From positions 1 to 64,000 of the forward strand of contig NZ_BMYK01000026.1 of NCBI RefSeq assembly GCF_014652235.1: DNA of 64,000 bases. The letters are read 5' to 3'. The first letter of the stretch is position 1; every line of letters starts with the position of its first letter. Below are positions 4,363-29,300 of the stretch, one piece after another. The position numbers were made by a program, and so were the translations under genes. Under the pieces are notes generated by a model that saw only the letters and a program-made list of their open reading frames with translations, ran no database searches and had not been told where the DNA came from. Origin of the DNA: Pseudorhodoferax aquiterrae. Its GTDB lineage: Bacteria > Pseudomonadota > Gammaproteobacteria > Burkholderiales > Burkholderiaceae_C.

Positions 4363-5232
4363 ATGAAGAAATCGATCGATTACGACAGCCTTGACGCTGC
4401 CATCCTCATTGCGATTGCGAACGGCCAACGTGAAGTGCGCGATCTGAGGTCTGGGGCCGTCCGGGTCGAGGCGCAGAAGATCGTGAAGCATCTGAACAAT
4501 GGCACTCCATACTGGCGTGTCGTGCAGCGCCGGCTCCAGACGCTCAGGACTGCAGGTCGCATCAGCTTCACCCGCCCGTCCCGGCTGAACCCTGAAGGGG
4601 GCTGGGTCATGGCCTTGAAACCGACGGCGCAGGATGCAGCGACTTCCGCGCCAGCCAAGACGCTCGGTCGGATCGCCTACGGCGTTGCGGCCAGGACCCG
4701 GGGGCTGAGCCGGCGGTGGCTCCACCTCAGCGCCGAGCAAAAACTGGAGTGGGAATTGATCGCCTCGGCCGTGGTGGATGCCTACGAGGGTTCACGCGGC
4801 CGAGCTGAGCGGCCGTGCAGCCAAGCAAGTACAGCGGTGGTGGCTTCTGCCTTTGATGCCGCGCCGCAGGGATCGTCCGGTCAGGTAGGCATTCTTGCGG
4901 CGACTCTGCGTGGTTCGCCCAATTCCTGTGCCCACAGTGCCTGGGCTGCGTCAGCGCTCCATGAGGACCGGCAGCAGCGAGGAGATGTCGTACGGCTTGG
5001 CGATAACGACAAAGCCTTCTTTGATCGCAGCTTGAGCAATGTCGCTGTGCCCACTGACCAGTACCGACCTGACGTGCGGGTGCGATCGCCGGATCGTGCG
5101 CACCAGTTCGACGCCATGCATGCCATCCATGACGATGTCGGACACCACGAAATCGGGGTTGAATCCGGCTCTCAAGGTCTTGAGCGCCTCCTCCCCGCTG
5201 CGCACCGCCCTGACGACGAAGCCATACGTTGA
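4363..5232 (+). CDS. Hypothetical winged-helix-like protein, paralogue of the gene at 14577, with a run-on C-terminus
   Basis: I do not recognise the family. The first 145 residues align along their whole length with the 148-residue protein at 14577-15023: DYDSLDAAILIAIANGQREV, then VVQRRLQTLRTAGRI, GGWVMA, the spacing LGRIAYGVAA and LSRRWLHLSAEQKLEWELIASAVV-like tail. The helix-rich first 80 residues look like a winged-helix DNA-binding fold. The paralogue stops shortly after the shared ISA.V..AYE motif, whereas this one runs on for more than 130 codons, the last 282 bases antisense to the end of the hybrid kinase gene. The run-on is low complexity and probably reflects a lost stop or a frameshift near 4790-4810. 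The start at 4363 is chosen from the paralogue; there is no Shine-Dalgarno. Confidence 0.6.
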   Translation: MKKSIDYDSLDAAILIAIANGQREVRDLRSGAVRVEAQKIVKHLNNGTPYWRVVQRRLQTLRTAGRISFTRPSRLNPEGGWVMALKPTAQDAATSAPAKTLGRIAYGVAARTRGLSRRWLHLSAEQKLEWELIASAVVDAYEGSRGRAERPCSQASTAVVASAFDAAPQGSSGQVGILAATLRGSPNSCAHSAWAASALHEDRQQRGDVVRLGDNDKAFFDRSLSNVAVPTDQYRPDVRVRSPDRAHQFDAMHAIHDDVGHHEIGVESGSQGLERLLPAAHRPDDEAIR

Positions 5233-6929
5233 CAGCAGTTGGTCGGCCGCGTCGCGCACGTCGTCGTTGTCGTCGACGAGCAGAATCGACGTTCCGGTCA
5301 TGTCTGGAGCTGCGCTGGGTTCGGATCCCCTCTCCGTTTTCCTTTGACCAGATTCGTTCCCTGGCAGCACGAGCGTCACCCGCGTTCCGTCACCGACGGC
5401 GCTGATCACCTCGACGGCCCCTTTCGCCGACTCGACGAAAGCAGCCACCTGGGCCAGTCCAAGCCCTGTGCCTTTGCCCTGCGGCTTGGTCGTAAAGAAC
5501 GGTTCGAAAATGCGCTCCTGCAACTCCTGACCGATGCCGATTCCTGAATCGCGAACCGTCACGGCCAGGCTGGTATCGCCGTTTGGGCTCAACCGCGCCT
5601 GAGCGGACAATTCGATGACACCGCCCTGAACCAACGCATCCCTGGCATTCGTCACCAGGTTCGTCACGGCGATCTCCAGTTCCAACGGGTCCACCCTGAG
5701 GGCCGGAAGATCACTCCCGATGTCGAGAACGAGCGTGTGCTGCGCGCCAAGCAGGTGCTTGGTCGTGTCCGCGATCCTGGCCAACTCATCGCCCGGCACG
5801 ATGCTCCGCAGGGTCAGCGTCCGCTGGGTCGACAGGAGGGACAACTGACGCGTCAAAGCTTCCGCCTTCTTCACGCTTCGGCGGACGACCTGAATGTCCG
5901 CCTCGCCGGCTTCGCCGATCCGCCGACGCAAAATCGTCAGCCGTCCGGTCACGACCTGCAGGATGTTGTTCAGATCGTGCGCGAGGCCAGCGCCGAGTTG
6001 GCCCACCAGACGCAGCTTTTCGGCTTGAGCCAACTTGGTTTCTGCACGCTCGCGTCGATGGATGGCCGCTTGCAGCTCCTCGGTCCTGCGTTGCAGGTTG
6101 TCGACGGCATCTGCCAGGCGACGCTGCACCATCCGGAAGTGCTGTGCAAGAAGGAGCAGCACCACGCTGAAGCGATGATGCCCTCGACGCGCACAGCGTA
6201 CCAAGCCAAGGTGTAGCGGGCTCCGCCGAAGGTGCTCAACCAGACGCCTGCTGCCTCGGCAGCAAGCACTACGATAAGCCATACGAAGATGGCGCGCTGA
6301 TGCAATCCTCGCAGCAGGATCAGCGCGACTGCCCCGGCGGCGAGCAACGCAGCCACATAGGAGCCGTACAAACTGAACAAACCAAAAAACTGCTGCCCGC
6401 TGTGGTCGTCGGTCGCAGCCACGTCCGTGAACTGCGAGCCGATGGCGCCAAACAGGGCAGCAGCCAGCGCCACGACCGTCGGGAAGCGGGCCTGTCGGGC
6501 GATACCCCTGTCACTGCCGACCTCGCACAAGGCGGCCCACACGATAAAGACCGCGAAGCCAGCTCGCCAGACGATGAACAATGCGCTCACCGCGTGCTCT
6601 GAACCCATCACTGGTTGGTCCGGAATCAAGGCGCCGGGAAAGGTCAGGAGGTGCAATACGGCCATGAGGCCGGAAAAGAGGTAGGCGGCAGCGATGACCG
6701 CGTGCGATAGGGGTTGCCTTGGCGCACTGGTCAGCAGCCAGAACGTTGCCAGATTGATCATCGCAGTGGCCGCAGCGTAGATCCCACTGACGTGAGGCAG
6801 AGGACGCAGCGGCACAGCCGCGAAGGGAAGTACTGCCGCGGTCGAGATAAGGACCAACGCTGCTGAGAAGAAGACCTTTCGCTGCTGCTTGGCGCTCGCG
6901 ATTTCATCGACGACGTCCTGAACTTGCAT
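4951..6929 (-). pseudogene. MASE4 membrane hybrid histidine kinase, split by a one-base frameshift
   Basis: Read from ATG 6929 (Shine-Dalgarno GGAGA), the first frame gives MQVQDVVDEIASAKQQRKVF followed by about seven to eight membrane helices of the MASE4 type, ending near 6175 at RVEGIIASA. The rest is in another frame from there: FSVVLLLLAQHF, a coiled coil, HisKA with GAGLAHDLNNIL (histidine near residue 318 of the repaired protein), HATPase with TNLVTNARDAL and GTGLGLAQV, then a receiver domain with DD, phospho-acceptor in VVSDIVMDG and K in IAKPYD. The span of 1979 bases becomes exactly 660 codons if one base is added. Inserting a G in TCAGCG|TGGTG restores a continuous ASAVVLLLL helix. 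It is either a recent mutation or a sequencing error. Intact, it would be a membrane sensor autophosphorylating onto its own receiver. Confidence 0.75.
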
Positions 6930-7065: not shown

Positions 7066-8682
7066 TCAGGCCCCCAATTTCGGATCTGAGGAGAACGATC
7101 TCGCCACTTGGTTTCGGCCTTGCTGCTTCGCGCGGTAGAGAGCTTTGTCTGCTGCCGAGACCAACGCGGTTGACGTGCTTTGCGGCCCCGGAACGAGCGC
7201 AGCCACGCCAAGGCTGACGGTCACGATGCCCATCGTCGAGCCCGCGTGCGCGATGGCCAGGTCCTTGACGGCGCCGCGGCACGCTTCAGCGACTGCTCCC
7301 GCACCCTCGAGGTCCGTTCCGCGCAAGAGGATGACCATCTCTTCTCCCCCGTAGCGGGCCACCAAGTCCTCGGGGCGGCGAACCACGGTGCGCAAGGCGG
7401 CGGCCACGCGAACGAGACAGCTGTCGCCCTTGACGTGACCGTAGGTGTCGTTGAACTGCTTGAAGAAGTCCACGTCGACCATGATCACCGCAAGTGCCGT
7501 CCCATCACGCTGCGCTTGTTTAAAGGATCGCTCCAGCCGCCGATCAAAGTACCCGCGGTTCGGCAGGCCGGTGAGACCGTCGAGCTGCGCGAGCTTTTGA
7601 AGGCGGGCGTTGGCAAGGGCAAGGGCGCCGTGGGCCTCACGGAGCTCCTTCTCTGCGCGAAGTCTCTGTCGCAATGCACGTCGGATGACTCGCAATCCCC
7701 CGAGCAGCGCCGCGCAAAGCAGAAGCACCCACAGCGTCTGCAGCCAAGAAGACACGCGCCAGGCGGAAAGCACCTCGTCATGCGACGAGGAGGCGATGAC
7801 CAGGACCGGGTAAGTTCTGCCACGTTCAAAGCTGTAGAACCGAGGCACGCCGTCGATCGGGGAGGGTGCGTCGCCAAAGCCAGCGCTGGTTTTCCCGAGA
7901 ACCAGTTCCACTGCGTCGGCTGGCTTGCCAATGTCGGAAGCGATCAGCGGATGCCTGGCGGCGTAGTGTCCCGCGATGGACAGCGTCACTGCGCCTTCGC
8001 CGACGTCGAACCGTTCGAGCACCAGCCGCAGATGCTCCAGGCTCAACGTGGCAAGCACCACGCCTTCAAAGCCGCCATCCGCGTCGTTGATCCGGCGAGA
8101 GATCGGTACGACCCATTTTCCCGACGACCGGCTGATGATGGGCGCACCGACCAGCGCGGATCCGCTTGAATTGCTGCGGTGGTGGAGGAAGTACGGTCGG
8201 TCCGAGTTGTTGGAGCCTTCATCCCAGAGTGGCTCCGACGTCGCTATCAAGGCACCCCCCGCGTTGTAGAGGAAGAGCCCTTGCAACTGGTCCGTTCGGG
8301 CCACGTGGTTCACCAGGACGGGCTGAAGGTCCAACAGTAGGTCGTTGGTTATTTCATCACGTTCCAGTGCGTGCACAAGGCTATCCAGGATGTGCTCCAC
8401 CTGAGCGATCGAGACCTCGACGCGATCCGACATGGCGCGAGCCAAATTGGTGTTCACCAGATGGGTCTGGGCGATCTCGTGCTTGCGTGTGGTAACCACC
8501 AGCCAGACGTTCGTTGCCAGAAGAGCAAGACCAACGAATCCGATCAGCCAGCGCGCAATGAACGTTCGCGGGCGTGGGCTTTCCGGCGGATCTCTTGGCT
8601 CCGCAAACTCGCTGAATCCCGTGGTCGGTTCCAGCAGCTCCTCATTCATCCGAGGAGGTTGGTTACCAGGCGGACTGCTCAA
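7066..8682 (-). CDS. Membrane diguanylate cyclase with a periplasmic dCache-type sensor
   Basis: A 538-residue protein that makes c-di-GMP. TM1 is at about 43-64, a periplasmic double-Cache-like ligand domain follows (about 65-310, with SDRPYFLHHR and GFEGVVLATL), TM2 is at about 313-333, then a short coiled coil and the GGDEF domain from 365. The catalytic signature is GGEEM (445-449), a Phe-to-Met variant of GGEEF that keeps both glycines and acids, so activity is likely. An RxxD inhibitory I-site (RPED, 436-439) sits five residues before it. Met12 is an alternative start. It lies just upstream of the MASE4 kinase on the same strand. Small organic ligands such as amino or organic acids are usual for this sensor type, but none can be named here. 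Confidence 0.9.
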   Translation of the reverse strand: MSSPPGNQPPRMNEELLEPTTGFSEFAEPRDPPESPRPRTFIARWLIGFVGLALLATNVWLVVTTRKHEIAQTHLVNTNLARAMSDRVEVSIAQVEHILDSLVHALERDEITNDLLLDLQPVLVNHVARTDQLQGLFLYNAGGALIATSEPLWDEGSNNSDRPYFLHHRSNSSGSALVGAPIISRSSGKWVVPISRRINDADGGFEGVVLATLSLEHLRLVLERFDVGEGAVTLSIAGHYAARHPLIASDIGKPADAVELVLGKTSAGFGDAPSPIDGVPRFYSFERGRTYPVLVIASSSHDEVLSAWRVSSWLQTLWVLLLCAALLGGLRVIRRALRQRLRAEKELREAHGALALANARLQKLAQLDGLTGLPNRGYFDRRLERSFKQAQRDGTALAVIMVDVDFFKQFNDTYGHVKGDSCLVRVAAALRTVVRRPEDLVARYGGEEMVILLRGTDLEGAGAVAEACRGAVKDLAIAHAGSTMGIVTVSLGVAALVPGPQSTSTALVSAADKALYRAKQQGRNQVARSFSSDPKLGA

Positions 8683-8913
8683 CTCCGCTCCTTACACAGG
8701 GTTTGCCAGCATGGAGGCTACGGACCCCAGCGTGGTCGTCACGCCCCGGTTCCTCCAACCTTCGAAGTCAACGTTATCCCGGTCCAACAGCGGGCCAACA
8801 ATGGCGCAGGTGGATGTCGCTGCTCCGGCGCATACCAAGATCCGGAGAACGAGCATTCCTTCTAGCCCGCATTCGAAACAATGCGGCTGGCGGTTCTGGG
8901 AGCCGCGACAGCG

Positions 8914-9096
8914 TCACTTTTTGTCGGCCAGATGGCGCTCGACATCGTCGGCCTGGGTGCCCACCGCCTGGACGGCCTCCTTCAAGCGTTCGGGCGTGAC
9001 GTTGAACTTCTTGGCCCAACCGCGAAGTTCATAGTCCTCGTGCACGTTGATGCGTTGGCGGTCTTGCCCGCCGGTCTTGCTTTTGTCGTCTGCCAT
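8914..9096 (-). CDS. DUF3606 small protein
   Basis: A 60-residue protein matching the DUF3606 pattern: lysine/aspartate-rich start MADDKSKTGGQDRQRINV, then DYELRGWAKKFNVTPERLKE and AVQAVGTQADDVERHL. It is preceded by a well-placed AGGAG. The function of the family is unknown. It lies back-to-back with the ExoIII-LigD gene that starts 304 bases away on the other strand, so a shared regulatory region is possible. Confidence 0.85.
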   Translation of the reverse strand: MADDKSKTGGQDRQRINVHEDYELRGWAKKFNVTPERLKEAVQAVGTQADDVERHLADKK

Positions 9097-9400
9097 GTTG
9101 TGCTCCTATTTAGCGGCGTTCGGTGCCACCGCAGAGAACATGCCATGCGATTGCTTGCGCGCCCGACAGACGTGGCCGAAACCGTCAGCCAGATGCGGCT
9201 TACGGTGCAACTAACAAGGCCCGACCGACGAGAGGTTGAAGGCACCTCCTACATCCGACCGGTTGCTGATGCTTCAAGCTGCAGCCAAGAAGGGGTGAAT
9301 GGATGATGGCTGTTGCCACCAACCCATGGAACGGCCTCAAATCGCTCCGCGCTCCAACCCTTTCGCGCCCCGAACGGCCTTGACCAGAACCTTTTTCGAC
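9097..9400. other. Divergent intergenic region between DUF3606 and the LigD fusion
   Basis: 304 bases without a recognisable gene. It should hold the promoters of both divergent genes, but I see no clear consensus box. The reading frame of the ligase fusion is open back to 9299, with no homologous sequence upstream of the Met at 9401. Confidence 0.4.
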
Positions 9401-12400
9401 ATGCGCGTCGCCACCTGGAACGTCAACAACGTCGTGAAGCGCCTGGACCTCCTGCGCGATTGGCTGGAGCGCACGCGGCCTGACGTGGTGGCATTGCAGG
9501 AGCTCAAGGCGCCGACGGCAGACTTCCCAACAGAGCAGTTGGAGGCAATCGGCTATCGCTCCTTGGTGGTGGGACAGCGCACCTGGAACGGCGTGGCGCT
9601 GTTGGCCCGTGGGCATGAGCCGTTGCCCGTGGTGACGTCGCTTCCAGGCGATCCCAAGGACAAAGAGGCCCGCTACATCGAAGCCGCCATCAACGGGGTG
9701 TTGTGTGCCTGCCTCTACCTGCCCAACGGTAACCCGCAGCCGGGGCCCAAGTTCGACTACAAGATGCGCTGGTTCGAGCGCATGCGGCTGCGTGCGCAGG
9801 AGCTGTGGAACTCGGGTCAACCGGTGGTCCTGCTTGGCGACTGGAACGTGGTGCCCACGGACCGGGACATCTACAAGTCCGACACTTGGCGAGACGATGC
9901 GCTGCTGCAGCCAGAGCCCCGGGAAGCGTTCGCAGCCATCCTGTCGCAGGGTTGGACCGATGCGCTGGAGAGCGTGCATCCGGGCGGCAAGCAATTCACC
10001 TTCTGGGACTACCGCCGCAAGCGCTGGGAGCGCAACGCCGGGCTGCGCATCGACCACATCCTGGTGGGGGAGCGACTGAAGGTCATCGATGCAGGGGTGG
10101 ACCGAGAGGAACGCGGCCGGGAAGGGGCCAGCGACCACGCCCCCGTCTGGGCAGAGCTGGAGCCGAATCTCACCAAAGCGCCGGCGCGCCGTGCTGCCAA
10201 GAAGTCGGCGGCGCCCCGTCCGTCCCAGAAGCCGGGAGGCACCGAGGCGGCCGAGCCCGATGCCGCACCGCTCGGTCGCTACAAAGCCAAGCGCGATTTC
10301 ACGAAGACCGCCGAGCCCAGTGGAAAGGCGGTCCAAAGGAGAGGGAAGAAGTCCAAGGCGCTGGCCTTCGTCATCCAGAAGCATTGGGCATCGCGGCTGC
10401 ACTACGACCTGCGCCTGGAGCTGGGAGGCGTGATGGTGTCCTGGGCCGTGCCCAAGGGGCCTTCCTACGACCCTGCGATCAAGCAGATGGCCATCCACGT
10501 CGAAGACCATCCAGTCGACTACAACACTTTCGAGGGGGACATTCCGAAAGGCGAGTACGGCGGCGGCACCGTCATCGTCTGGGACCGCGGCACCTGGGAG
10601 CCTGTCGAAGACCCCGCGGAGGGCATGACCAAGGGCAAGCTCATCTTCAAGCTGCACGGCGAGAAGCTGGCAGGGCTGTGGGAGCTGGTGCGGATCTCCA
10701 AGCCCGGGGCGAAGAAGCAGGAGCAGTGGATCTTCTTCAAGAAGCGCGGCGACGCCTGGGTGCGGCCTAGCACCGAGTACGACGTGATCTCCGCGCTGCC
10801 GGACAGCGTGGTCGAGAAACCACTGGGCCCTATCGAAGAGCGCGAGCCGCGCGAACGGCCAACCGCCAAGCGCCCGTCGGCTGCCCAGGCCGAAGAGCAC
10901 CTGCAGCGCGGCAAGCGGGCGGCGCTGCCTGCGAAAGTCCAGCCGCAGCTCGCCACGCTGGTGTCGTCGGTGCCCCCTGGCGACTGGGTCGTGGAGAGCA
11001 AGTTCGATGGGTACCGCATGCTCGTGCGCGTGGACGGCGATCGCGTGCAGCTCTTCACCCGCAACGGACACGACTGGACCGCCAAGCTGCAGCCCGTGGC
11101 CGAGGCCGTGGCCGCGCTGGGCTTGGACAGCGCCTGGCTCGATGGCGAGATCGTCGTGATGAACGATGCCGGGCTGCCGGACTTCAACCTGCTCCAGAAC
11201 GCGATCGACAACGCGCGGACCAAGGACGTCGAGATGTTCGTGTTCGACATCCTGTTCCTCGGCGGGAAAGACGTGCGCGAGGTGCCGCTGGCGAGCCGGC
11301 GTGCGGTGCTGCAGGAGCTGTTCAAGGCCGTGGACAGCGAGGCGCTGCACTTCAGCCAGTCGTTCGACGTGGTACCAGGCCAGCTCCTGGAAGCCGCCTG
11401 TCAGATGGGCATGGAGGGCGTCATGGTCAAGCGCGCCGACGCACCCTACGTGGCCGGCCGGACGGAGACTTGGCTGAAGCTCAAGTGCCAGAACCGTCAG
11501 GAGTTCGTGGTGGTCGGCTACACCGACCGTTCGAACGCGCCAGGCGAAGTGGGCAGCCTGCTGCTCGGCTACCACGAAGCCGGCCAGCTCCACTTCGCCG
11601 GGTCGGTGGGAACGGGATGGGGGTCCGCCAAAGGCCGCGACCTGAAGGTGACGCTGGCCAAGCTGCAGGTCAAGGAAGCCACCGTCGACACCGAAGAGGC
11701 CAAGCCGGGACGCTGGTCCAAGCGCAGGGCAGGCGACGAACACTGGGTGCAGCCGAAGATGGTGGTCGAGGTGGCGTTCTCGGAGTGGACGCCGGATGGC
11801 CGCATCCGCCACCCTGTGTTCCGCGGCGTGCGCACCGACAAGCCGCCAACCAACATCGTGCGCGAGCGGCCGACGGCGGCCGGCAGGGCGCCCGCGGCGG
11901 CAAAGCCAGCGGCCAAGACCGCCATCAAGGTCTCGAACCCGGAGCGCGTCATCGATCCGACCACCGGGCTGCGCAAGGTCGATGTCGTGCGCTACTACGA
12001 GAGCGTGGCCGAGTGGATGCTGCCGCATCTGAAGGGCCGGCCGGTGTCCCTCGTGCGCGGGCCGACGGGAATCACGGGCGAGCTCTTCTTCCAGAAGCAC
12101 GACGACAAGCTGTCGATCCCGCACGTTCGTAATCTTCCGGCGCACCTGTGGCCAGGGCATGCGGAGCTGCTCGAGATCCCGGATGCCAAGGCGCTGGTCG
12201 CGTGCGCCCAGATGAACGTCCTGGAGTTCCACACCTGGAACTCGGCCGCGAAGAACATCGACAAACCCGACCGCATCGTCTTCGACTTGGACCCGGGCGA
12301 GGGCACGCCTTGGCAGCACGTCCAGGAGGCGGCCACGCTCGTGCGCGCTATGCTCGAGCAGCTTGGGCTGGAGAGCTGGCTGAAAACTTCAGGCGGCAAG

Positions 12401-12793
12401 GGCCTGCACGTGGTCGTGCCGTTGGCGCCGCGGCTGGACTACGACACCGTCAAAAGCTTCTCACAGGCCGTGGTGCAGCACCTGGCGCGGACCATCCCAA
12501 CGCGCTTCGTGGCCAAGAGCGGACCGAAGAACCGCGTGGGCAAACTGTTCGTGGACTACCTGCGCAACGGCCACGGCGCGACGACGGCAGCGGCGTTCTC
12601 GGCGAGGTCGCGGCCGGGGCTTGGGGTGTCGATGCCCGTCGCATGGGAGCAGCTCGGTGAACTCAAGAGCGGCGCGCAGTGGACGATCACAAACGCGCGG
12701 GAATACCTGAGCTTTCAGAAGCATGATCCCTGGTCGGCCTACTGGAAGACGAGACAGACTTTGACCGCGGCGATGAAAACGTTGGCGCGGTAG
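9401..12793 (+). CDS. ligD: Exonuclease III - DNA ligase D fusion protein (EXO-PE-LIG-POL)
   Basis: A 1130-residue four-domain DNA-repair enzyme. Residues 1-255 are an exonuclease III/AP-endonuclease-like EEP nuclease: WNVNN at the start, LQELK, GDWNVVPTDRDIY and the terminal SDHAP with D245/H246. A Lys/Ala/Pro-rich linker (about 260-300) leads into a complete LigD. Its phosphoesterase domain has SRLHYDLRLE (H334, D336) and IHVEDHP (H366). Its ATP-dependent ligase has adenylation lysine K534 in SKFDGYR. Its primase-polymerase has FDLDPGEG (D962, D964) and GGKGLH (H1003). LigD with Ku repairs double-strand breaks by end joining. The PE-LIG-POL order matches Pseudomonas LigD, but usual LigD proteins begin near the motif GRYKAKRDF, found here at about residue 290. 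The start is the Met beginning MRVATWNVNN, the natural ExoIII start. No Ku gene is in the window. The fusion would couple abasic-site or 3'-end cleaning to gap filling and ligation. Confidence 0.93.
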   Translation: MRVATWNVNNVVKRLDLLRDWLERTRPDVVALQELKAPTADFPTEQLEAIGYRSLVVGQRTWNGVALLARGHEPLPVVTSLPGDPKDKEARYIEAAINGVLCACLYLPNGNPQPGPKFDYKMRWFERMRLRAQELWNSGQPVVLLGDWNVVPTDRDIYKSDTWRDDALLQPEPREAFAAILSQGWTDALESVHPGGKQFTFWDYRRKRWERNAGLRIDHILVGERLKVIDAGVDREERGREGASDHAPVWAELEPNLTKAPARRAAKKSAAPRPSQKPGGTEAAEPDAAPLGRYKAKRDFTKTAEPSGKAVQRRGKKSKALAFVIQKHWASRLHYDLRLELGGVMVSWAVPKGPSYDPAIKQMAIHVEDHPVDYNTFEGDIPKGEYGGGTVIVWDRGTWEPVEDPAEGMTKGKLIFKLHGEKLAGLWELVRISKPGAKKQEQWIFFKKRGDAWVRPSTEYDVISALPDSVVEKPLGPIEEREPRERPTAKRPSAAQAEEHLQRGKRAALPAKVQPQLATLVSSVPPGDWVVESKFDGYRMLVRVDGDRVQLFTRNGHDWTAKLQPVAEAVAALGLDSAWLDGEIVVMNDAGLPDFNLLQNAIDNARTKDVEMFVFDILFLGGKDVREVPLASRRAVLQELFKAVDSEALHFSQSFDVVPGQLLEAACQMGMEGVMVKRADAPYVAGRTETWLKLKCQNRQEFVVVGYTDRSNAPGEVGSLLLGYHEAGQLHFAGSVGTGWGSAKGRDLKVTLAKLQVKEATVDTEEAKPGRWSKRRAGDEHWVQPKMVVEVAFSEWTPDGRIRHPVFRGVRTDKPPTNIVRERPTAAGRAPAAAKPAAKTAIKVSNPERVIDPTTGLRKVDVVRYYESVAEWMLPHLKGRPVSLVRGPTGITGELFFQKHDDKLSIPHVRNLPAHLWPGHAELLEIPDAKALVACAQMNVLEFHTWNSAAKNIDKPDRIVFDLDPGEGTPWQHVQEAATLVRAMLEQLGLESWLKTSGGKGLHVVVPLAPRLDYDTVKSFSQAVVQHLARTIPTRFVAKSGPKNRVGKLFVDYLRNGHGATTAAAFSARSRPGLGVSMPVAWEQLGELKSGAQWTITNAREYLSFQKHDPWSAYWKTRQTLTAAMKTLAR

Positions 12794-13108
12794 CTTCTGT
12801 CGGGCATTCGCGATCGACGAGTCCCACGAGAGATGCCGCGGCCGTCCCGCGTTGATGTTTCTTTGCAACGTGCTTCGCTGCGATGGACGGAGCCTTGGTC
12901 CATCGACCAGTCGAGCGGCCTAAATCGCATGAGACTAGTCGGAGCAGTCGCTGACAAGCCAATCGAAAGGACCAGGCTGGGGCGGGCGATCGCCGCTGAT
13001 AAATCGCATCGAGACCGAGCACCGCCGAAAAGTGCTCGCCGTCAAAGATCGTGTTTTGGTGCTTAAGGTGCAGTAGCTCCGGTTGGCCATATCCGCAGCA
13101 GAGAGCAC
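12794..13108. other. Intergenic stretch after ligD
   Basis: No gene is recognisable on either strand; the open frames here look like chance frames of GC-rich DNA. The segment lies between ligD and an EAL-domain remnant and may be decayed coding sequence. Confidence 0.4.
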
Positions 13109-13387
13109 GTGCTTCGGGCGGAGCTGGCTCCAAATACCACGCTAAACACTGCTATCACGGACCACCTACCAAAACTATTCAGTCAAGAACTACCAGAATT
13201 ATTGTGCCGCCATGGCAATCACGGGTGTGGGGAAATTCAGGGTTATCTTTTCAGCAGACCGCTGGCGTCGGATTGCTTCTTGGACTTCGTGCGCGAGCAA
13301 CAGGCCACAGCCATCAATGCGAAGGAAGTGAGGCGCCTCATGGCGCTCGGTGGCCCTTCGTCGCGTACCAGCCCCGCGCCGTTGTGA
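13109..13387 (+). pseudogene. Remnant of the C-terminal end of an EAL phosphodiesterase
   Basis: Within this 92-codon frame, residues from about 13190 onward read RHGNHGCGEIQGYLFSRPLA followed by SDCFLDFVREQQ, which is the characteristic last 35-40 residues of EAL domains (the loop with the glutamine of the QGYxFSRP motif). Nothing upstream in any frame supplies the rest of an EAL or GGDEF domain. It is therefore the tail of a degraded c-di-GMP phosphodiesterase gene, not a working protein. Confidence 0.55.
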
Positions 13388-13575
13388 GATGGCGACTGTG
13401 CTGACCGCGAGCGATGCTTGGGCGCCGCCACACGGAGATGCCTTAAGGCCGAGGGTAGGCACTGACGGCGCCGTGAGGGACGGCGGGTTGTCCTACGTCG
13501 AGTGGCTTGGCAAAAATTGGCATTTCATCTGAAATGATGATCGCAAGGGCTTGATAAATCACAAGAAACGTGCTT

Positions 13576-13590
13576 TGGCCCAAAAGCTGC
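13576..13590 (+). promoter_or_regulatory. Sigma-54 (-24/-12) promoter of the PEP-CTERM gene
   Basis: TGGCCCAAAAGCTGC has the invariant GG and GC dinucleotides with the exact spacing of the TGGCAC-N5-TTGC consensus. It lies 41 bases ahead of the ATG at 13632. RpoN-dependent expression under PrsK/PrsR is known for PEP-CTERM genes in betaproteobacteria, so the context supports it. Confidence 0.55.
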
Positions 13591-13591
13591 G

Positions 13592-13615
13592 GAAGTAACT
13601 GTACGTACGTACTTC
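13592..13615 (+). promoter_or_regulatory. Inverted repeat with a GTAC core at the PEP-CTERM start site
   Basis: GAAGTA (13592-13597) and TACTTC (13610-13615) form a perfect 6-bp inverted repeat around a GTACGTACGTAC core (13601-13612). It lies immediately downstream of the -12 element, where the transcript should begin, and could be an operator or a 5' mRNA hairpin. Function is inferred from position only. Confidence 0.3.
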
Positions 13616-13631
13616 GCGTGCGGGGTCTAGG

Positions 13632-14423
13632 ATGAGAAAGATGAAATCTGTGATTTTGAAATCGGGTGCGGCAGCTCTGGCTGCGTTTTGCGTCAGCGCC
13701 GTGTCTGCCGCGCCCATCGCCCAGTGGGACTACATGGTCAACAGCTCGTTCTTGGCGGCCGAAACGCAGTTCACGAGCGGTCGCGCTTCGAGCAACGGCG
13801 TGGCCTCGTCTGACGAAATCAATTGGGGAGTCGCTGGCGGCACCGTCGGGGTCAACCGCAGTGGGCTGATCATTTCCAATTCACCCAGTGGCGGCGTTCT
13901 CATCACCGATGGCGATGCCGCGCTGGCGAACAGCTACACCCACGTGAACAACGGCAACCTCGGCCGCAACAGCGTTTCCTTGAAAGTGGCCGAGATCGCA
14001 GCCCAGCTGCAGCTGCGTCCGACCAACTCCGGTCTGCCGTATTCCTCCGTGGGCGCGACGTACACGATCAATTTCGCTGAAACGCCCAACGTGGCGGGCA
14101 CTTGCGTGGTTCAGAGCGCAGTCGCCTGCGATGACATCTTCGTTCTTGCCGGCTCCCTCAACGAATCGTTCACCTACGACGGCTTCGAATATTTCGTCAG
14201 TTTCTTCGCTGCTCCGACGTTGACCGCCCTGGATCCAGCCGTTTGCGCAGCGGCCGGTGCCGACGCTGGGTGCCTGGGCTTCACGACGCAAGAGTTCATG
14301 AGCACCACCGTGAATTTCAACCTGATGATCACCAGCAAGGCCATCGACGTTCCCGAACCAGCCTCCGTGGCGCTTCTGGGCCTGGGACTGCTCGGCCTTG
14401 CCGCATCGCGCCGACGCAACTAG
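13632..14423 (+). CDS. THxN-type PEP-CTERM exported protein
   Basis: A 263-residue exported protein. The signal peptide covers about residues 1-27 (SGAAALAAFCVSAVSAAP). The mid region contains the family motif NSYTHVNN, typical of THxN PEP-CTERM proteins, which have no known enzymatic role. The C-terminus is a full PEP-CTERM sorting signal: VPEPASVALLGLGLLGLAAS followed by RRRN, meaning PEP motif, hydrophobic helix, arginine cluster. Such proteins are processed by exosortase and sent to the surface or matrix; no exosortase is in this window. The second in-frame ATG at 13641 has a better-placed purine-rich site (AGGATGAG) and may be the true start. A sigma-54 promoter lies just upstream. Base composition is a little lower in GC than its neighbours. 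Confidence 0.88.
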   Translation: MRKMKSVILKSGAAALAAFCVSAVSAAPIAQWDYMVNSSFLAAETQFTSGRASSNGVASSDEINWGVAGGTVGVNRSGLIISNSPSGGVLITDGDAALANSYTHVNNGNLGRNSVSLKVAEIAAQLQLRPTNSGLPYSSVGATYTINFAETPNVAGTCVVQSAVACDDIFVLAGSLNESFTYDGFEYFVSFFAAPTLTALDPAVCAAAGADAGCLGFTTQEFMSTTVNFNLMITSKAIDVPEPASVALLGLGLLGLAASRRRN

Positions 14424-22853: not shown

Positions 22854-24959
22854 TCAAAAGCCGAGTTCGCGCACCAGGACGGCGAGGATCTGTCGGGCGT
22901 ACCTTGCGGCAGGTGGCTCCCAGCGGCCCGAGATGGACAACTGGCCTCTCCACGACTGGCCGCTCAGCATCTCCGGCAAGGGATCCTGCAACGTCAGCAC
23001 GACGTGATACGCACCGTGTTCTGGCACCAATTGGTTGCCTTTCTCACGCGTCAAGAGATGCCCCCCGCTCTGGGCCGCCACCTCCGGGCGAGGCAGACTG
23101 CGGGCGGTGTCGCGGTCGATCGAGGCGACCTCCAACGCAAGCCCACGCAAGGGCGCGGCAGGGGCAATGAACACGGCCGCATCGCCAACGGCGATCGTTC
23201 GCACCATGTCCTCGTCCACCCAGGTCTCCACGATCCACCGACCGTCGTCGCGAACGAGAAGTCCGATCCGCTCGCGACGCGCGACCCACTGGCCTGGGCG
23301 CAGGTCGGGATCGACGTCCCGCAAGTGGCCCGCGAACGGCGCGGTCGGGCGATAAGTCTGAAGCTCTGCTTCGACGTTGGCCAATTCCGCGCGCGTGGCC
23401 GAGACAATGTCTTCGCTGACGAGCAGCTGTTTGCGCGTTTCGGCGTCGAATCCGGCCGTGGCGGCCTGCCATTGAAGCCCTTGTAAGCGGGCCGACAAAG
23501 CGGCTCTTCGCTGCGTCAGCTCGTACGAGTGCAGGCTCATCAACTCCGCCCCTAGGGCAACCGGCTGGCCGTCCCAGAAAGGTAACGCTTCAAGACGGGC
23601 ATGTCCGGGCGCGTAAACCGGCCAAATTTCCGCCGGCCGCAACAAGGCCGTCGCCGTGGAGCGCGTCGGCCAAGGCAAGAGGGTGAGCAGCACAGCCGTG
23701 AAAAGGAGCGCTACCGTCCAGCGCGTCCTTGACGACGCACGGATGCGTGGCCAACGCGCTCGCCATGCCACCCACTCCTGTCGCAACGGCGCCATGATGA
23801 ACCAGCCGATCTCGACCGCGAACAACAAGATGCCGAGAACCTTCAAGAAGAACTGGTAGACCAGCAGCGCAATGCCGAGAAAGAGCACGCAGCGATAAAC
23901 CCAGGTCGCCCATGCGAATCCGATCATGGCACGCGTGCGCGCAGAAGAAAGGAACTCGGGGACCGGTTCTCGAAGATCGAAGAGGCGTTCTCGCAAATGC
24001 CACCGAGCCAGTGCAAAGCTGCGCTCGTGCAGGTTCGGCATGTCCAGCGCATCGGAGAGGATGAAGTACCCGTCGAAGCGCATGAACGGGCTGGCGTTGA
24101 TGGCCAGCGTCACTAGCCAGCTGGTCGTGGCCAGCACGAAGGCTGCCGAACGCCAGGCACCGTCAGGCAGAAACGCCCACGCCAGCGTGGCCCATGCCGC
24201 GATGTGCAGTTCCGTCACGATGCCTGCGCACGCCACACGCAACCGGCGACGTGCGTCCGTGAGCTTCCAGGTCTCGTTGGTGTCGGTGTAGGCCACTGGC
24301 CACATCACGAGGAAGGCCACCCCCATCGTCGGCACGCGGCACCCGTAGTGCTTTGCAGTGAAAGCATGGCCGAGTTCGTGGAGGAACTTCGTGACGAAAA
24401 GCGCCAAGCCGTACGCGGCCAGGCCCTGCCAGCTGAACGCGTCCACCAGGGACGCCTGGAACACGTCCCATTGCCGGGCGGCTTGACCGACGCCCACCAG
24501 CAACGCCGCCACCGTCAACCAGCGGAACGATGAGGTCCCGAACAACCGGGCGGCGGGCAGCCAGCGATGGAGCCACGCATCAGGTCTCCAAAGTGGGATC
24601 CGGAAGAACAAGTAATGATGCAGCAGCCATTTCCACAGCGACGAGCGCTGGCGGGCCCACCTTTCGGCCCATTCGTCCGCGCGACCTGGCTCGGGTCGCG
24701 TCAGCTGGTGTCCGGCCAAGAACTCGATCACTCGCTCGACGTCTTGCGTTTGCATGTCCAACGTGGTGTTCGCGCAAACGTCAGCGGCAATCGCCTCCAC
24801 GTTGGCTTGTGACCAGCGCTTCAAGATCTCGAAGGTTGGCCAGTCGAGTCGGAAGAACAGCTGACGAACGGGGTCGTGGAGCGTCCAGCTCGGCTGGCCA
24901 TCGGGCAGGGCAGGGCCGGGATGAAGAACCAATTCTTCGCGCAGAGGCGGCAACGCCAT
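22854..24959 (-). CDS. M50 (site-2-protease-like) membrane metallopeptidase with HlyD-like tail
   Basis: 701 residues, last gene of the adhesin operon. Residues 20-90 resemble a PqqD-like domain ([14 protein letters not shown]). The membrane core carries the zinc motif HELGH (H194, E195, H198) and, about 100 residues later, FDGY with D296, together the M50 active site, plus several membrane helices up to about 430. After a further helix near 440-460 the C-terminal 230 residues look like a HlyD barrel-sandwich and beta-barrel: [11 protein letters not shown], a coiled coil with [33 protein letters not shown] and [17 protein letters not shown]. Such fused proteins occur beside HlyD and TolC genes in Proteobacteria. 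Its substrate is unknown; the giant protein of the operon is the natural candidate. It starts 2 bases after the upstream adaptor gene ends, so translation is coupled. Confidence 0.82.
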
Positions 24960-24961
24960 CG

Positions 24962-26326
24962 TCACAGTCCCAAGGTGGCCCGTGCGGTTGCAAGCGGCCG
25001 TCGCAACGCCCAATAGGAAAGGGGCACCCAGCCTGCGTAGAGCTTGGCCGCGCCCTTGAGACCCACACGATGTGCCGTGGGACCATCCAAGGTCGCTCGC
25101 AGCCGATAGGCGTAGCCGCCTTCGGGGCGCTGGACCGCATCGTGAGCGAAGTAGCGCACCCGCGCGGTGATCGGCTCCAGCGGCGTGGCGTTGAGGTACA
25201 GCTTCACCTGCGCGCCAGGCTGCAGCGCGATCGCATCGGCCAGCGGCAGCCATGCCTCGATCTCCACGTCGTCCGGCTCCGCGATGCGAAGGATCCGTTC
25301 GCCCACGGTGACCGGCTTGCCGATCCACTCGCTCGGGTCGTCGAACAACACGGTGCCCCCCTGCGGCGCTAGCACGCGGGCGCGGGCCAGTTGGCCGTCC
25401 AAGTACTCGACCTCGGCGCGCTTCTCGTCGATCTTGCCGGTGAGCAAGACGAGCTGCGACTTGGCGCGCGCATCGCCCAGGGCTTGCTGCGACGACTGCC
25501 GGTACTCCGTTTCGATCGTGGCCAGCGCCTTGCGGGCAACGTCCAGCCGTCCCTGGATGAGCATCTCATCGAACCCGAACAGCACCTGGCCTTTGGCGAC
25601 GCTGTCGTTCGGCTGGACCTGGAAGTGGGCGATGACGCCGTCCAGCGGTGCGCGCACCACGGCTGGATGAGCGGGCACCAGTTCGCCGGGAGCGAGCACC
25701 GTCAAGCGAACGGGACATGCAGCGACGAGCAACGAAGCGGCCAGCCAACGCACACTTGCGCGCCGCCACCAAACGGGACGTTTGGCTCCCTCCGACGTCG
25801 CGTTTCCAAGGCGCGAGAACCAGCCGCCCACCGCTCCCACGCCGCGCGGGCGGCGCAGCGCAGCGAACGCGTGCCACCACGCCTGCGTCCATTCGCGGGC
25901 CAGCGCGACGTCCATGTCGCTCCATGGGCGCTCGCCGAGCAGCACCAGCAGGGATTGCTCGGTTTCGCCGCTTCCTCCCATGGGAAGCACCAGGGCATGC
26001 GCAGGCCACCATTCGGCCCAACCGGCAGCCAAGTCGGATGGAAGGTCGTCGCTTGCCAAACGTCCGTCAGCAGGAGGTTGTGCTGCCACGTGCCGGCACA
26101 GTCGGGTGACCCATTGCGCATACGGAGCGTTGGCCTCGGGCTGCAGCACGCCCGACAGGCTATCGATGCCAGCGTCTGCGCGCCAAAACACGCTCTGCCG
26201 ATACGGCAGCAGCTGCAACGTGTCGTTGACGAGCAGAAAGGCCAGCTCGCGCGCGTTTTTGGCCAGCCGGGCACGGCGGACCAGCTCGTACAGCCGAGCG
26301 ACCGCAGCCCCACCCGATTCCTGCAT
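24962..26326 (-). CDS. HlyD-type periplasmic adaptor with N-terminal GAF-like domain
   Basis: 454 residues. Residues 1-160 are cytoplasmic and GAF-like ([50 protein letters not shown]). A single membrane helix lies at about 194-212 ([20 protein letters not shown]). The periplasmic part has the two lipoyl-like halves of a membrane-fusion protein ([20 protein letters not shown] and [19 protein letters not shown]), a coiled-coil hairpin between them and a beta-barrel ([20 protein letters not shown]). The start overlaps the stop of the giant protein gene as TGATG, so the two are co-translated. The GAF-like front would let a cytoplasmic ligand act on export; that is inference. Confidence 0.85.
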
Positions 26327-29300
26327 CAGGCCGGGACCCTCACGACGCGTTCAGGCATCCAGCCGGAGCCCGCCTGGGACGCAACGCGGATCTGTTCGCT
26401 CAGCCCTGGATGACCGAACGAGATCCGCTTCCCCTTGCCGATCGACATCTTGAACACCGATCGGGCCTCGCGCCCCTCGGCATCGCGCGCGATCACGACC
26501 ACTTGCAGCTCGCCATCGAACCCCGCCGGGGGATCCACTCGGAAGGTGCCCGTGCGGGCGTCGAACTGCACCCAGGCCGGCAGCTCGGCACCGTCAGCGC
26601 GCCTGGCGGTCAAGCTCACCGTGGCGTCCGGCTGCGTGTGAGCGAACGCGTCGGAAGGCAGGGTGAAGCTGCTCGGGTCGCCTGGCTCGACGTACTGGTC
26701 CGTGATGCCCATGAAGACGCTCAGCCTGGGCTGGGTGTCGCTCAGTACCATGACGCGGAAACCCGACGGTTGGGTCAACGCATCGCCGAAGCGGTCCGGC
26801 AGAGCCGCCACGGCCTCGGTGGCAACCCTTTCGACGGACGCAAACGTGATCGGCACGGTCGGCTGCGCAACGGGCACGTCGAACGCGAAAGCCGGCGCGG
26901 CGACCGGCGCGGGCTCGGGAGCAGCCGGCTGCGCAGCAGGCGGTAGCACCGGCGGCGGATCCACGGCCACTGGGCGGTCGTCGTCGGCAGTCCCCGTCGC
27001 GGCCACGCCGTCGGAGTTGTCGGCGGTGAAGACTTCGGCGGACCCGCCGTCGTCCCTGATGGTGGCCGTGCCGACAGCTGCCGTGCCGCCCGTGCTGCGA
27101 GCAAGCAGGCGAAGGGTTTCGCTCCCTTCGAAGCTGCTGTCGTTGACCACGGCCACCCGAACCAGCAGCCGGCCGCTTCCACCGACCTGGACCAAGCTGC
27201 CGGCATTGTAGGAACGCCACGCGATGCCGTCGAAGACTTCCAGAGCAGTGCCTGTGTCGGCACCGGCCGTGGCCGTTCCAGACTCCAGTGCCAAGGTCAC
27301 ACGTTCGCCGCCGGCTGCGTCGACCGCGAACACGATGTAAGGCGACGCTTCGCTCACCGTGGGGCTGCTGACGCTCAGCGGCCGGTCGTCGTCTGGCACC
27401 GCCGACGCGTCGATGCTGCCGTCGGGCCCGAAGATGCTCCCCGTGCCGTCATCGCGGATCGTCGCATCGCCGCGCACGGCGGCCCCGCCCCGCGGCGTGG
27501 CTATCAGCGCAAACGCTTCGCCGTTGTCGGCCACGGCGTCGTCAACGATGGACGTGCGGACCAACAGTTGGCCGCTGGCCGGCAACGCGATCGGACCCGC
27601 ATAGTCGGCCCATGTCGTTCCGCCGTCCACGGAAACCTGCAGCCCTGGCCCGAAATCGGTGCCTCCGCCCGTGGCAGATCCGCCTTCCAAGGCAAGGCTA
27701 AGGGATCGGCCTGGGCTGCCGCTGACGGTAAAGACCGCCGTCGGCGAAGCTTCGTTGACGATGGGATTGCTGACGAAGACCGGGCGGTCATCGCTGCGAG
27801 GGGCGCTCGGATCGATGCTTCCATCGGGCCGGTAGACGTCGCCGCCGCCGTCGTCCTTCAGCGTCGCGGTGCCGGTGGTCGTGCCCGTCCCGGTCGTGAC
27901 CGTGAGCGCAAACGTCTCGCCGTCGTCGCTGAACCCATCGTCGACCACGGGCGTGCGAACCAAGAAAGTTCCGAGAGCGGGGACCGTCACGTTGCTCGCG
28001 TAAGCCGACCAGGTCACACCACCGTCGATCGACACCTCGAGGCCTCCAGGGCCTTCGCTGCCGAAGTCCGTGCCGAGCCCGGTTGCGGTGCCTGCCGACA
28101 ACGCAAGGGTCACCGACTGCCCAGGCGACGCGCTGACGGTGAAGACGGCAAAGGGCGATGCCTCGTTCACGACAGGATTGCTCACGCTCGGCATCGAGAG
28201 GGTGTCGATGGCCAGCGCCACTCGGTTGTCCGCGTCGCTCCCGTCGTTGTTCAGGTTGCCCGCTGCGTCGGTGAATGCAGCGCTGGCCACGCTGATCGAC
28301 CCCGTCATTGCGACGCCGATCGTTGGCGTGAACCGCGCGGTGTAGGTGGTCCCGCTGCCGGTGAAATCGCTCAGCGTGCCGCCCGCGACGGCGATGTCTC
28401 CTAGGACGAAATCGGAAGATGGCTCCGAAAGCGTGAACGTGAGCACCGCGGTGTCGCCGCGTCGCAGGTTGGTCCGGTCGGCGGAGATGGCGATCGTCGG
28501 ACGCGCGCCGTCGTAGGCGATGGCCACCGAGTTGTCAGCGTCTGAGCCGTCCCCGTTGAAGTTGCCAGCAGCGTCGGCGAAGACGCCGCTTGCCACGGTG
28601 ACGGACCCTGCAGCGCCGCTCGGAGTGAAAGTCGCCGTGTAGACGGAGCCGCTGCCGCTGAAGTTGCTGAGCGTGCCTCCGGTGACCGCCACGTCTGCTG
28701 CGCTGAAGTCCGCAGAGGGTTCGGACAAGGTGAAAGTGATGGTGGCGGTTTCACCGAGCTTGAGACTGGCTCGGTCGGTCGAGACCACCACGGTGGGCGA
28801 CGTTCCGTCGTACGAGATGGCCACCGAGTTGTCGGCGTCCAGGCCGTCCGCGTTGAAGTTGCCGGCAGCGTCAGAGAATGCGGCGCTGGCGACGGAGACG
28901 GACCCTGCAGCTGCGCTTGGAGTGAACGTCGCCGTGTAGACGGTGCCGCTGCCAACGAAATTGCTGAGCGTGCCGCCGGTGACCGTCACGTCCGGTGTGC
29001 CGAAGTCGGTGGAAGGCTCGGACAGGGTGAAGGTGATGACCGCAGCTTCGCCTTGCTTGAGGCTCGCCCGATCCGTCGAGACGACGACGGTGGGTCGGGT
29101 GCCGTCGTGGGCGATGGCCACCAAGTTGTTGGCGTCCGCGCCGTCCGCATTGAAGTTGCCAGCGGCGTCGGAGAAGGTGGCGCTGGCCACGGAGATCGTT
29201 CCGCTCGCAGCATTCGGTGAGAACGTCGCGGTGTAAACCGAGCCGCTGCCGCTGAAGTTGCTGAGCACGCCGCCCGTGACGGCGACGTCGGCGGCGCCGA

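Follow-up and report, generated by a model that had tools for sequence, protein, structure and literature searches.

The window analysed here, the first 64,000 nucleotides of contig NZ_BMYK01000026.1 of Pseudorhodoferax aquiterrae, carries at 9401-12793 a gene in which an exonuclease III (ExoIII, Xth)-type nuclease is joined in frame to a complete DNA ligase D (LigD), with its phosphoesterase (PE), ligase (LIG) and primase-polymerase (POL) domains. We think that the product is best read, with a probability of roughly 60%, as a four-module end-joining enzyme in which a 3'-end cleaner, similar in action to the Neisseria enzyme NExo, would be tethered to LigD. The parts of the gene are as follows (papers are cited throughout by PMC number, for the excerpts of their text).

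9401 to 12793, forward strand: ExoIII-LigD fusion gene, 1130 codons plus stop, with full-length homologues in related genomes.
9401 to 10159, forward strand: ExoIII/Xth-type nuclease domain, residues 1-253 (family models; AlphaFold2; the nearest solved structure is Neisseria NExo).
9725 to 9727, forward strand: codon of Asn109, by alignment the equivalent of NExo N108, a 3'-phosphatase determinant (role according to PMC6294502).
9902 to 9904, forward strand: codon of Leu168, by alignment the equivalent of NExo H167, which blocks abasic sites in NExo and is Ser in E. coli ExoIII (role according to PMC6294502).
10160 to 10270, forward strand: linker of 37 residues, rich in Lys, Arg, Ala and Pro, predicted to be unstructured (local confidence below 50 from residue 259; 0 of 37 positions invariant).
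10271 to 10780, forward strand: LigD 3'-phosphoesterase (PE) with its catalytic residues kept, residues about 291-460 (Pfam/NCBIfam, alignment).
10925 to 11866, forward strand: ATP-dependent DNA ligase (LIG) with ESKFDGYR, residues 509-822 (Pfam/NCBIfam, motif).
11924 to 12778, forward strand: primase-polymerase (POL) with DLDPG and SGGKGLH, residues 842-1126 (Pfam/NCBIfam, motifs).

Translated, the gene gives 1130 residues with the sole stop at the end, and the earlier note, which had read from the letters one uninterrupted frame holding ExoIII and a complete LigD, is fully borne out by the translation, the family models and the catalytic residues. Pfam scores Exo_endo_phos at 100 bits (residues 4-246), and the NCBIfam models xth (TIGR00633) and exoDNase_III (TIGR00195) reach 212 and 210 bits against curated cut-offs of 99 and 182.6; as all catalytic residues are present too, the first domain is a member of the ExoIII/Xth family, and it stays below the cut-offs of PRK11756 (153 against 280) and PRK13911 (66 against 503). 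The rest of the chain is LigD, with PE, LIG and POL all above their curated cut-offs: TIGR02776 (DNA ligase D) scores 663 against 373, TIGR02777 (PE) 222 against 144, TIGR02779 (LIG) 313 against 228 and TIGR02778 (POL) 297 against 215, and Pfam adds LigD_N (145 bits, residues 326-431), DNA_ligase_A_M (107), DNA_ligase_A_C (87) and LigD_Prim-Pol (301). Chance is excluded as the source of these matches. Catalytic residues are present in every LigD domain (KxDG in LIG, DLD in POL, and those of PE in P. aeruginosa LigD numbering). Some of the PE labels are those of PMC8656161.

The frame is open already from an ATG at 9299, and we consider 9401 the more likely start, since the alignment of the relatives begins at MRVATWN and the in-frame residues ahead of it are not alike among them. 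The remark that no Met precedes the LigD part can be extended to all the usual codons: there is no in-frame ATG, GTG or TTG between codon 233, inside ExoIII, and codon 344, inside PE, so that none of them offers a start for a separate, intact LigD. An AlphaFold2 model built from 38 sequences supports a nuclease that would fold independently on a flexible linker, with a predicted local confidence (pLDDT) of 75-98 across residues 1-250 and below 50 for the linker and most of PE, where LigD rows were few. An open frame of 1039 residues runs antisense to the gene (9200-12319, reverse strand), as is common in GC-rich coding DNA.

The case for a 3'-end cleaner starts from two positions of the nuclease. 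We aligned 174 ExoIII domains with three references; 122 of these rows, defined by locus group and identity, are called the subclade here, and a tree that covered 82 of them split them from 14 others at a support of 98 (starred). NExo is a 3'-phosphatase that does not cut abasic sites: its His167 blocks the abasic residue, the changes H167G or H167S admit abasic sites, and N108 promotes 3'-phosphatase activity (PMC6294502), while other members of the family carry Gly or Ser at this gate position (PMC4750427). All 122 fused and related subclade members have Leu at the H167 position and Asn at the N108 position. The window nuclease thus has Leu168 at the gate, not the Gly or Ser of an abasic-site (AP) endonuclease, and with Asn109 it has the Asn of a NExo-type 3'-phosphatase. 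As its gate residue is bulky without being His, we propose that it works like NExo, not that it is one. The two positions go together also among the 52 other ExoIII domains, a Gly or Ser gate being paired with Gln or Ser at 108 in 23 of 23 and a His, Leu or Met gate with Asn in 29 of 29.

The solved structures point the same way, the Neisseria NExo matching at 180 bits, the A. fulgidus ExoIII at 138, the E. coli ExoIII at 123 and NApe at 79. The nuclease part is 39% identical over 252 residues to NExo of Neisseria meningitidis (PDB 2jc4, 6fk4), with which it shares the 3'-phosphatase Asn and a bulky gate residue, but its gate is Leu instead of His and it is joined to LigD. E. coli exonuclease III (PDB 1ako, 35% identity) belongs to the same family and has the same catalytic residues, but stands alone and carries Ser/Gln where the fusion has Leu/Asn. 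The window genome also encodes separate ExoIII-type enzymes, one on C4 with the Gly/Ser pair (NApe-like) and one on C27 with the NExo-like His/Asn pair, the latter being in these two residues a closer NExo counterpart than the fused nuclease. From these residues and matches, cleaning of 3' ends is the most likely function of the fused nuclease, and it is more likely the C4 enzyme that cuts abasic sites in this cell.

The mechanism that we propose follows the order of the modules, ExoIII-type nuclease, flexible linker, PE, LIG and POL. At a break held by Ku, or at a gap, with a blocked 3' end (3'-phosphate, 3'-phosphoglycolate or 3'-unsaturated aldehyde), the nuclease would restore a 3'-OH, POL would then add one or a few nucleotides and LIG would seal, all on the same chain. 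Its activities would be those of a 3'-phosphatase and 3'-phosphodiesterase with some 3'-5' exonuclease, and with little or no abasic-site cutting; it would also remove blocks that PE may not handle, and the arrangement in cis would confine an exonuclease of broad 3' activity to the end being repaired, with LigD controlling it. The closest precedent in action is the mycobacterial LigC/Prim-PolC system, in which, in vitro, a separate ExoIII/XthA or EndoIV removes the 3'-phosphate before Prim-Pol fills and the ligase seals (PMC5663958). There the partners are separate proteins that bind each other, whereas the fusion is one chain of the LigD type. EndoIV, which lacks a strong exonuclease, did best in that system (PMC5663958), which hints that a chain of this kind would not contain a strong exonuclease.

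A further argument comes from fusions that have no PE. Compared with P. aeruginosa LigD, the window protein has the same domain order (PE, LIG, POL) and catalytic motifs, and differs by about 290 extra N-terminal residues that make up a whole ExoIII-type nuclease; two related proteins, L139 and the Desertivirga locus L014, depart further from LigD in that PE is missing. In L139 (genome G193) an ExoIII of the fused clade is joined directly to LIG-POL, and this LIG-POL groups with that of L123, an ordinary PE-bearing LigD, at a support of 99 (starred); by this grouping, ExoIII has taken the place of PE in one relative. The PE of LigD takes off 3'-phosphates and 3'-ribonucleosides (PMC8656161), so that a 3'-end cleaner would be its natural substitute.

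The earlier note had left open whether the nuclease serves abasic sites or blocked 3' ends and had suggested a machine for base excision and end joining in a single chain; blocked ends survive our analysis, and the abasic-site part has become doubtful, given Leu/Asn in all 122 subclade members and the two PE-less fusions. In its full form, that idea would have the ExoIII part cutting abasic sites and the polymerase, 5'-deoxyribose phosphate (dRP) lyase and ligase of LigD finishing short-patch repair. Several points speak for it: AP endonuclease activity is known from well-studied members of the family such as E. coli ExoIII and NApe (PMC6294502), the catalytic residues of the nuclease are all there, and LigD, which has its own 5'-dRP lyase, can finish short-patch repair once an AP endonuclease has acted, the B. 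subtilis enzyme rebuilding this repair in vitro and the P. aeruginosa enzyme having the lyase as well (PMC4770248), so that a base-excision role can still be envisaged. We nevertheless consider it unlikely, because the gate and Asn are of the wrong kind, NExo, which does not act on AP sites, is the top match among solved structures, an enzyme of the NApe type is encoded separately in the genome, and the module replaces, in L139, a domain that processes 3' ends, one that is missing in L014 too.

Less probable still is that the ExoIII part acts mainly as a 3'-5' exonuclease which trims ends to short homologies and so sets the size of end-joining deletions. NExo and ExoIII do have 3'-5' exonuclease activity (PMC6294502), and a tether would direct resection to the held end, but NExo favours 3'-phosphates (k3'P is 1.9 per s and k3'Exo 0.31 per s; PMC6294502) and we see no sign of higher processivity in the sequence.

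Guilt by association adds to the case, for part of the subclade is linked to ku or ligD. In a phylum sample of 398 genomes, 85 had a match at E 1e-70 and flanks were fetched for 60 loci by rank; 11 of these 60 subclade loci have a gene for LigD, a ligase or Ku at a distance of at most 5 kb, whereas 0 of 50 more distant ExoIII loci do, these being taken from other genomes by peptide patterns, with flanks of up to 5 kb that are shorter at contig ends (Fisher p 0.0009, a value that overstates independence since a single family, f51, supplies 8 of the 11). Among the 11, L246 is itself a fusion and L224 has a single ligase gene only. On pMl9 of S. meliloti the run is ligD-ku-TPR-hydrolase-xth, with an xth of the same subclade as the fused nuclease; in Rhizobium TH2 xth adjoins ku-ku-ligD, Sphingobium RAC03 has ku..ligD-xth and Kaistella xth-ku-ligD. 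Counter-examples are the Phenylobacterium and V. paradoxus plasmid copies, with no gene of non-homologous end joining (NHEJ) within 8 kb. As for Ku, which the earlier note proposed to look for elsewhere in the genome, the window genome has four matches to PF02735, one of them partial, and among 17 fusion loci of the Comamonadaceae there are 10 with Ku no more than 5 kb away.

Some further observations concern these neighbourhoods. In the pMl9 run (L159, 12381-15774), a TPR protein and an alpha/beta hydrolase stand between ku and xth, in a tight head-to-tail series with ligD. On plasmids of both Sphingobium (L110, 3386-5903) and Novosphingobium (L111, 3386-5866), ligD-xth is preceded by the same set of genes: ku, a small hypothetical one, one with a KTSC domain and one for a GNAT acetyltransferase. 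In Sphingobium limneticum (L026, 5494-6335) the POL part of the ligD beside xth is in two frames, and that ligD looks broken. At L096 (G000:C8) two Ku-type matches, 5119-5403 and 13027-13956, lie about 8 kb apart, the first a fragment only.

Besides the bias towards one family, several points weigh against our reading. As to linkage, 49 of the 60 subclade members of the phylum sample are neither fused nor near NHEJ genes, 17 of the 19 unfused ExoIII loci fetched in the window's own family have none in their stretch (the other two being L145 and L147), and no Ku was found in the 64-kb window. As to activity, the Leu/Asn pair also occurs in 12 of the 52 other ExoIII domains and is therefore not specific to the subclade; a Leu gate is not among the variants discussed in the excerpts of PMC6294502, which also describe determinants of abasic-site cutting other than the gate, so that an enzyme with Leu might still admit an abasic site, and E. 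coli ExoIII does both 3'-end cleaning and abasic-site cutting in one enzyme (PMC6294502). The PE-bearing fusions that were aligned keep the catalytic residues of PE (residue 15 varies in two), and with them its 3'-phosphatase residues, so that 3'-phosphate cleaning is already provided there. Finally, the AlphaFold2 model, with a predicted template-modelling score of 0.36, gives no confident arrangement of the domains.

The join itself seems to have been made repeatedly. The ExoIII tree holds 96 of the 174 rows, 20 of them fused (it takes in all 42 rows that are fused or near, 40 of the 80 that stand alone and 14 of the 52 other ExoIII); the label 'fused' requires four changes on it, and the starred branches force four. 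A single fused clade is rejected at p-AU 3e-5, in a one-clade test that was named after the tree had been seen and run on a quick tree. We count three sound origins and one decayed. The first lineage, in the Comamonadaceae, makes up 17 rows. The second, in a large gammaproteobacterial genus that is probably Pseudomonas, has ExoIII-PE-LIG-POL frames of 1126-1168 residues in at least 6 of 199 genomes (at most three candidates were scored per genome, here and in the family sample below, so that fusion counts are lower bounds), with intact motifs in the four copies examined, save one PE motif variant in L271. The third is Desertivirga xinjiangensis, where one genome has one 979-residue frame of ExoIII-LIG-POL. 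The fourth, Mycetohabitans rhizoxinica, has the genes joined in B12 and HKI 454 and separate in B49 and B5; we do not count it as a sound fusion but as decayed, for the ExoIII part of B12 lacks catalytic residues (D147N, D218E, D245S) and its last residues are unlike the family, and HKI 454 is also broken in POL. Because bacteria that are not related seem to have acquired it more than once, the weld is likely useful rather than an accident.

A search of plasmids gave 14 records in which one place matches at least 80% of the fusion's length, and the six examined were those of Mycetohabitans B12 (where the joined gene is annotated just 'DNA ligase D'), HKI 454, B49 and B5, of Sphingobium RAC03, with adjacent genes, and Novosphingobium pSA2, with the order ku..ligD-exo, no coding sequence annotated there and exo in two frames. 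Viral contigs gave no match to the peptide patterns of the fusion.

Closer to the window, the fusion is conserved. The window genome has three fusions, on C26 (the window), C44 (83% identical) and C21 (73%), and one LigD without ExoIII (C19, 54% identical). In the genus, at least one full-length fusion was found in 6/6 genomes searched, and a LigD without ExoIII likewise in 6/6; proteins covering both the EEP nuclease and LigD thus exist in relatives, as the earlier note had proposed to check, and it is not the case that all relatives have two separate genes. Relatives with the fusion include Variovorax and Pseudorhodoferax (grouped as Comamonadaceae). In a family sample of 200 genomes, of which 60 had any match at E 1e-60, at least 5 genomes have an intact fusion (3 of them in the window's genus), at least 1 a PE-less one and at least 2 damaged ones, and the LigDs without ExoIII are about 41-71% identical to the LigD part of the fusion. 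Two Comamonadaceae fusions are damaged, L140 being broken in LIG and L141 truncated.

Purifying selection acts on each domain, the constraint on the nuclease being about equal to that on the LigD domains: when the window gene is compared with five relatives, the ExoIII part has a dN/dS of 0.08-0.21, PE of 0.11-0.28, LIG of 0.05-0.32, POL of 0.05-0.20 and the linker of 0.29-0.51. Across 14 intact fusions of the Comamonadaceae, the share of invariant positions is 53% in ExoIII, 55% in PE, 41% in LIG and 52% in POL. None of the 37 linker positions is invariant among these and the length varies from 17 to 43 residues, so the conserved linker once claimed is conserved in kind (Lys, Arg, Ala, Pro) and not in sequence.

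A second, truncated fusion copy at L164 (G005, 9263-10270) consists of ExoIII, linker and the first PE residues, with a broken frame. L142 (G160, 8490-9425) is a stand-alone ExoIII within the fused clade, with a basic tail and '..DAPLAG' at about the point where LigD follows in the fused proteins; it has the look of a fusion that has come apart, or else of a state before fusion, and its genome carries a LigD without ExoIII elsewhere (L175).

Could the fusion be a harmless join of neighbouring genes that travel together, with independent domains and no gain from cis? Subclade ExoIII genes adjoin ligD in several lineages, so that a read-through can easily join them; within a single Mycetohabitans species the genes occur both apart and joined, with decay in the joined state; and L142 is a lone ExoIII inside the fused clade. 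We find this quite improbable, however, since two full fusions each persist in several species (and one of them has been shown to be under purifying selection), three paralogues are kept in one genome, the linker is kept in kind and two PE-less forms exist. A sequencing, assembly or read-through artefact, against which the earlier note had argued, is ruled out, because the same frame recurs in many independent assemblies, namely in 14 intact Comamonadaceae loci that are not identical, and in a different genus as well.

Elsewhere in the window (22854-34437, reverse strand) lies a protein of 2703 residues with repeated Ig-like, cadherin-like and Calx-beta domains, adjoining HlyD-type and M50/HlyD-type proteins; it is perhaps a large secreted adhesin with its export genes.

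The usual account of end joining in bacteria has two players, Ku and a LigD of three domains. We did not find an ExoIII-LigD fusion described in titles or abstract openings of the open-licence PMC literature; the excerpts of PMC7719229 mention 20 extra domains in Ku and LigD proteins, and ExoIII may be among them. A wider proposal, to which we would give even odds, is that an NHEJ-linked ExoIII subclade for blocked 3' ends is a fourth LigD module, captured in cis at least three times and able to replace PE, which would give a distinct ExoIII-LIG-POL class of ligase. A fourth module that has been joined more than once, and is found in the place of PE, suggests that break repair in bacteria is held up at the step where blocked 3' ends are removed, and the fused nuclease is an enzyme that may solve this problem. 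The xth of the S. meliloti ligD-ku cluster, a member of the same subclade, offers a partner in which this can be tested in well-studied bacteria.

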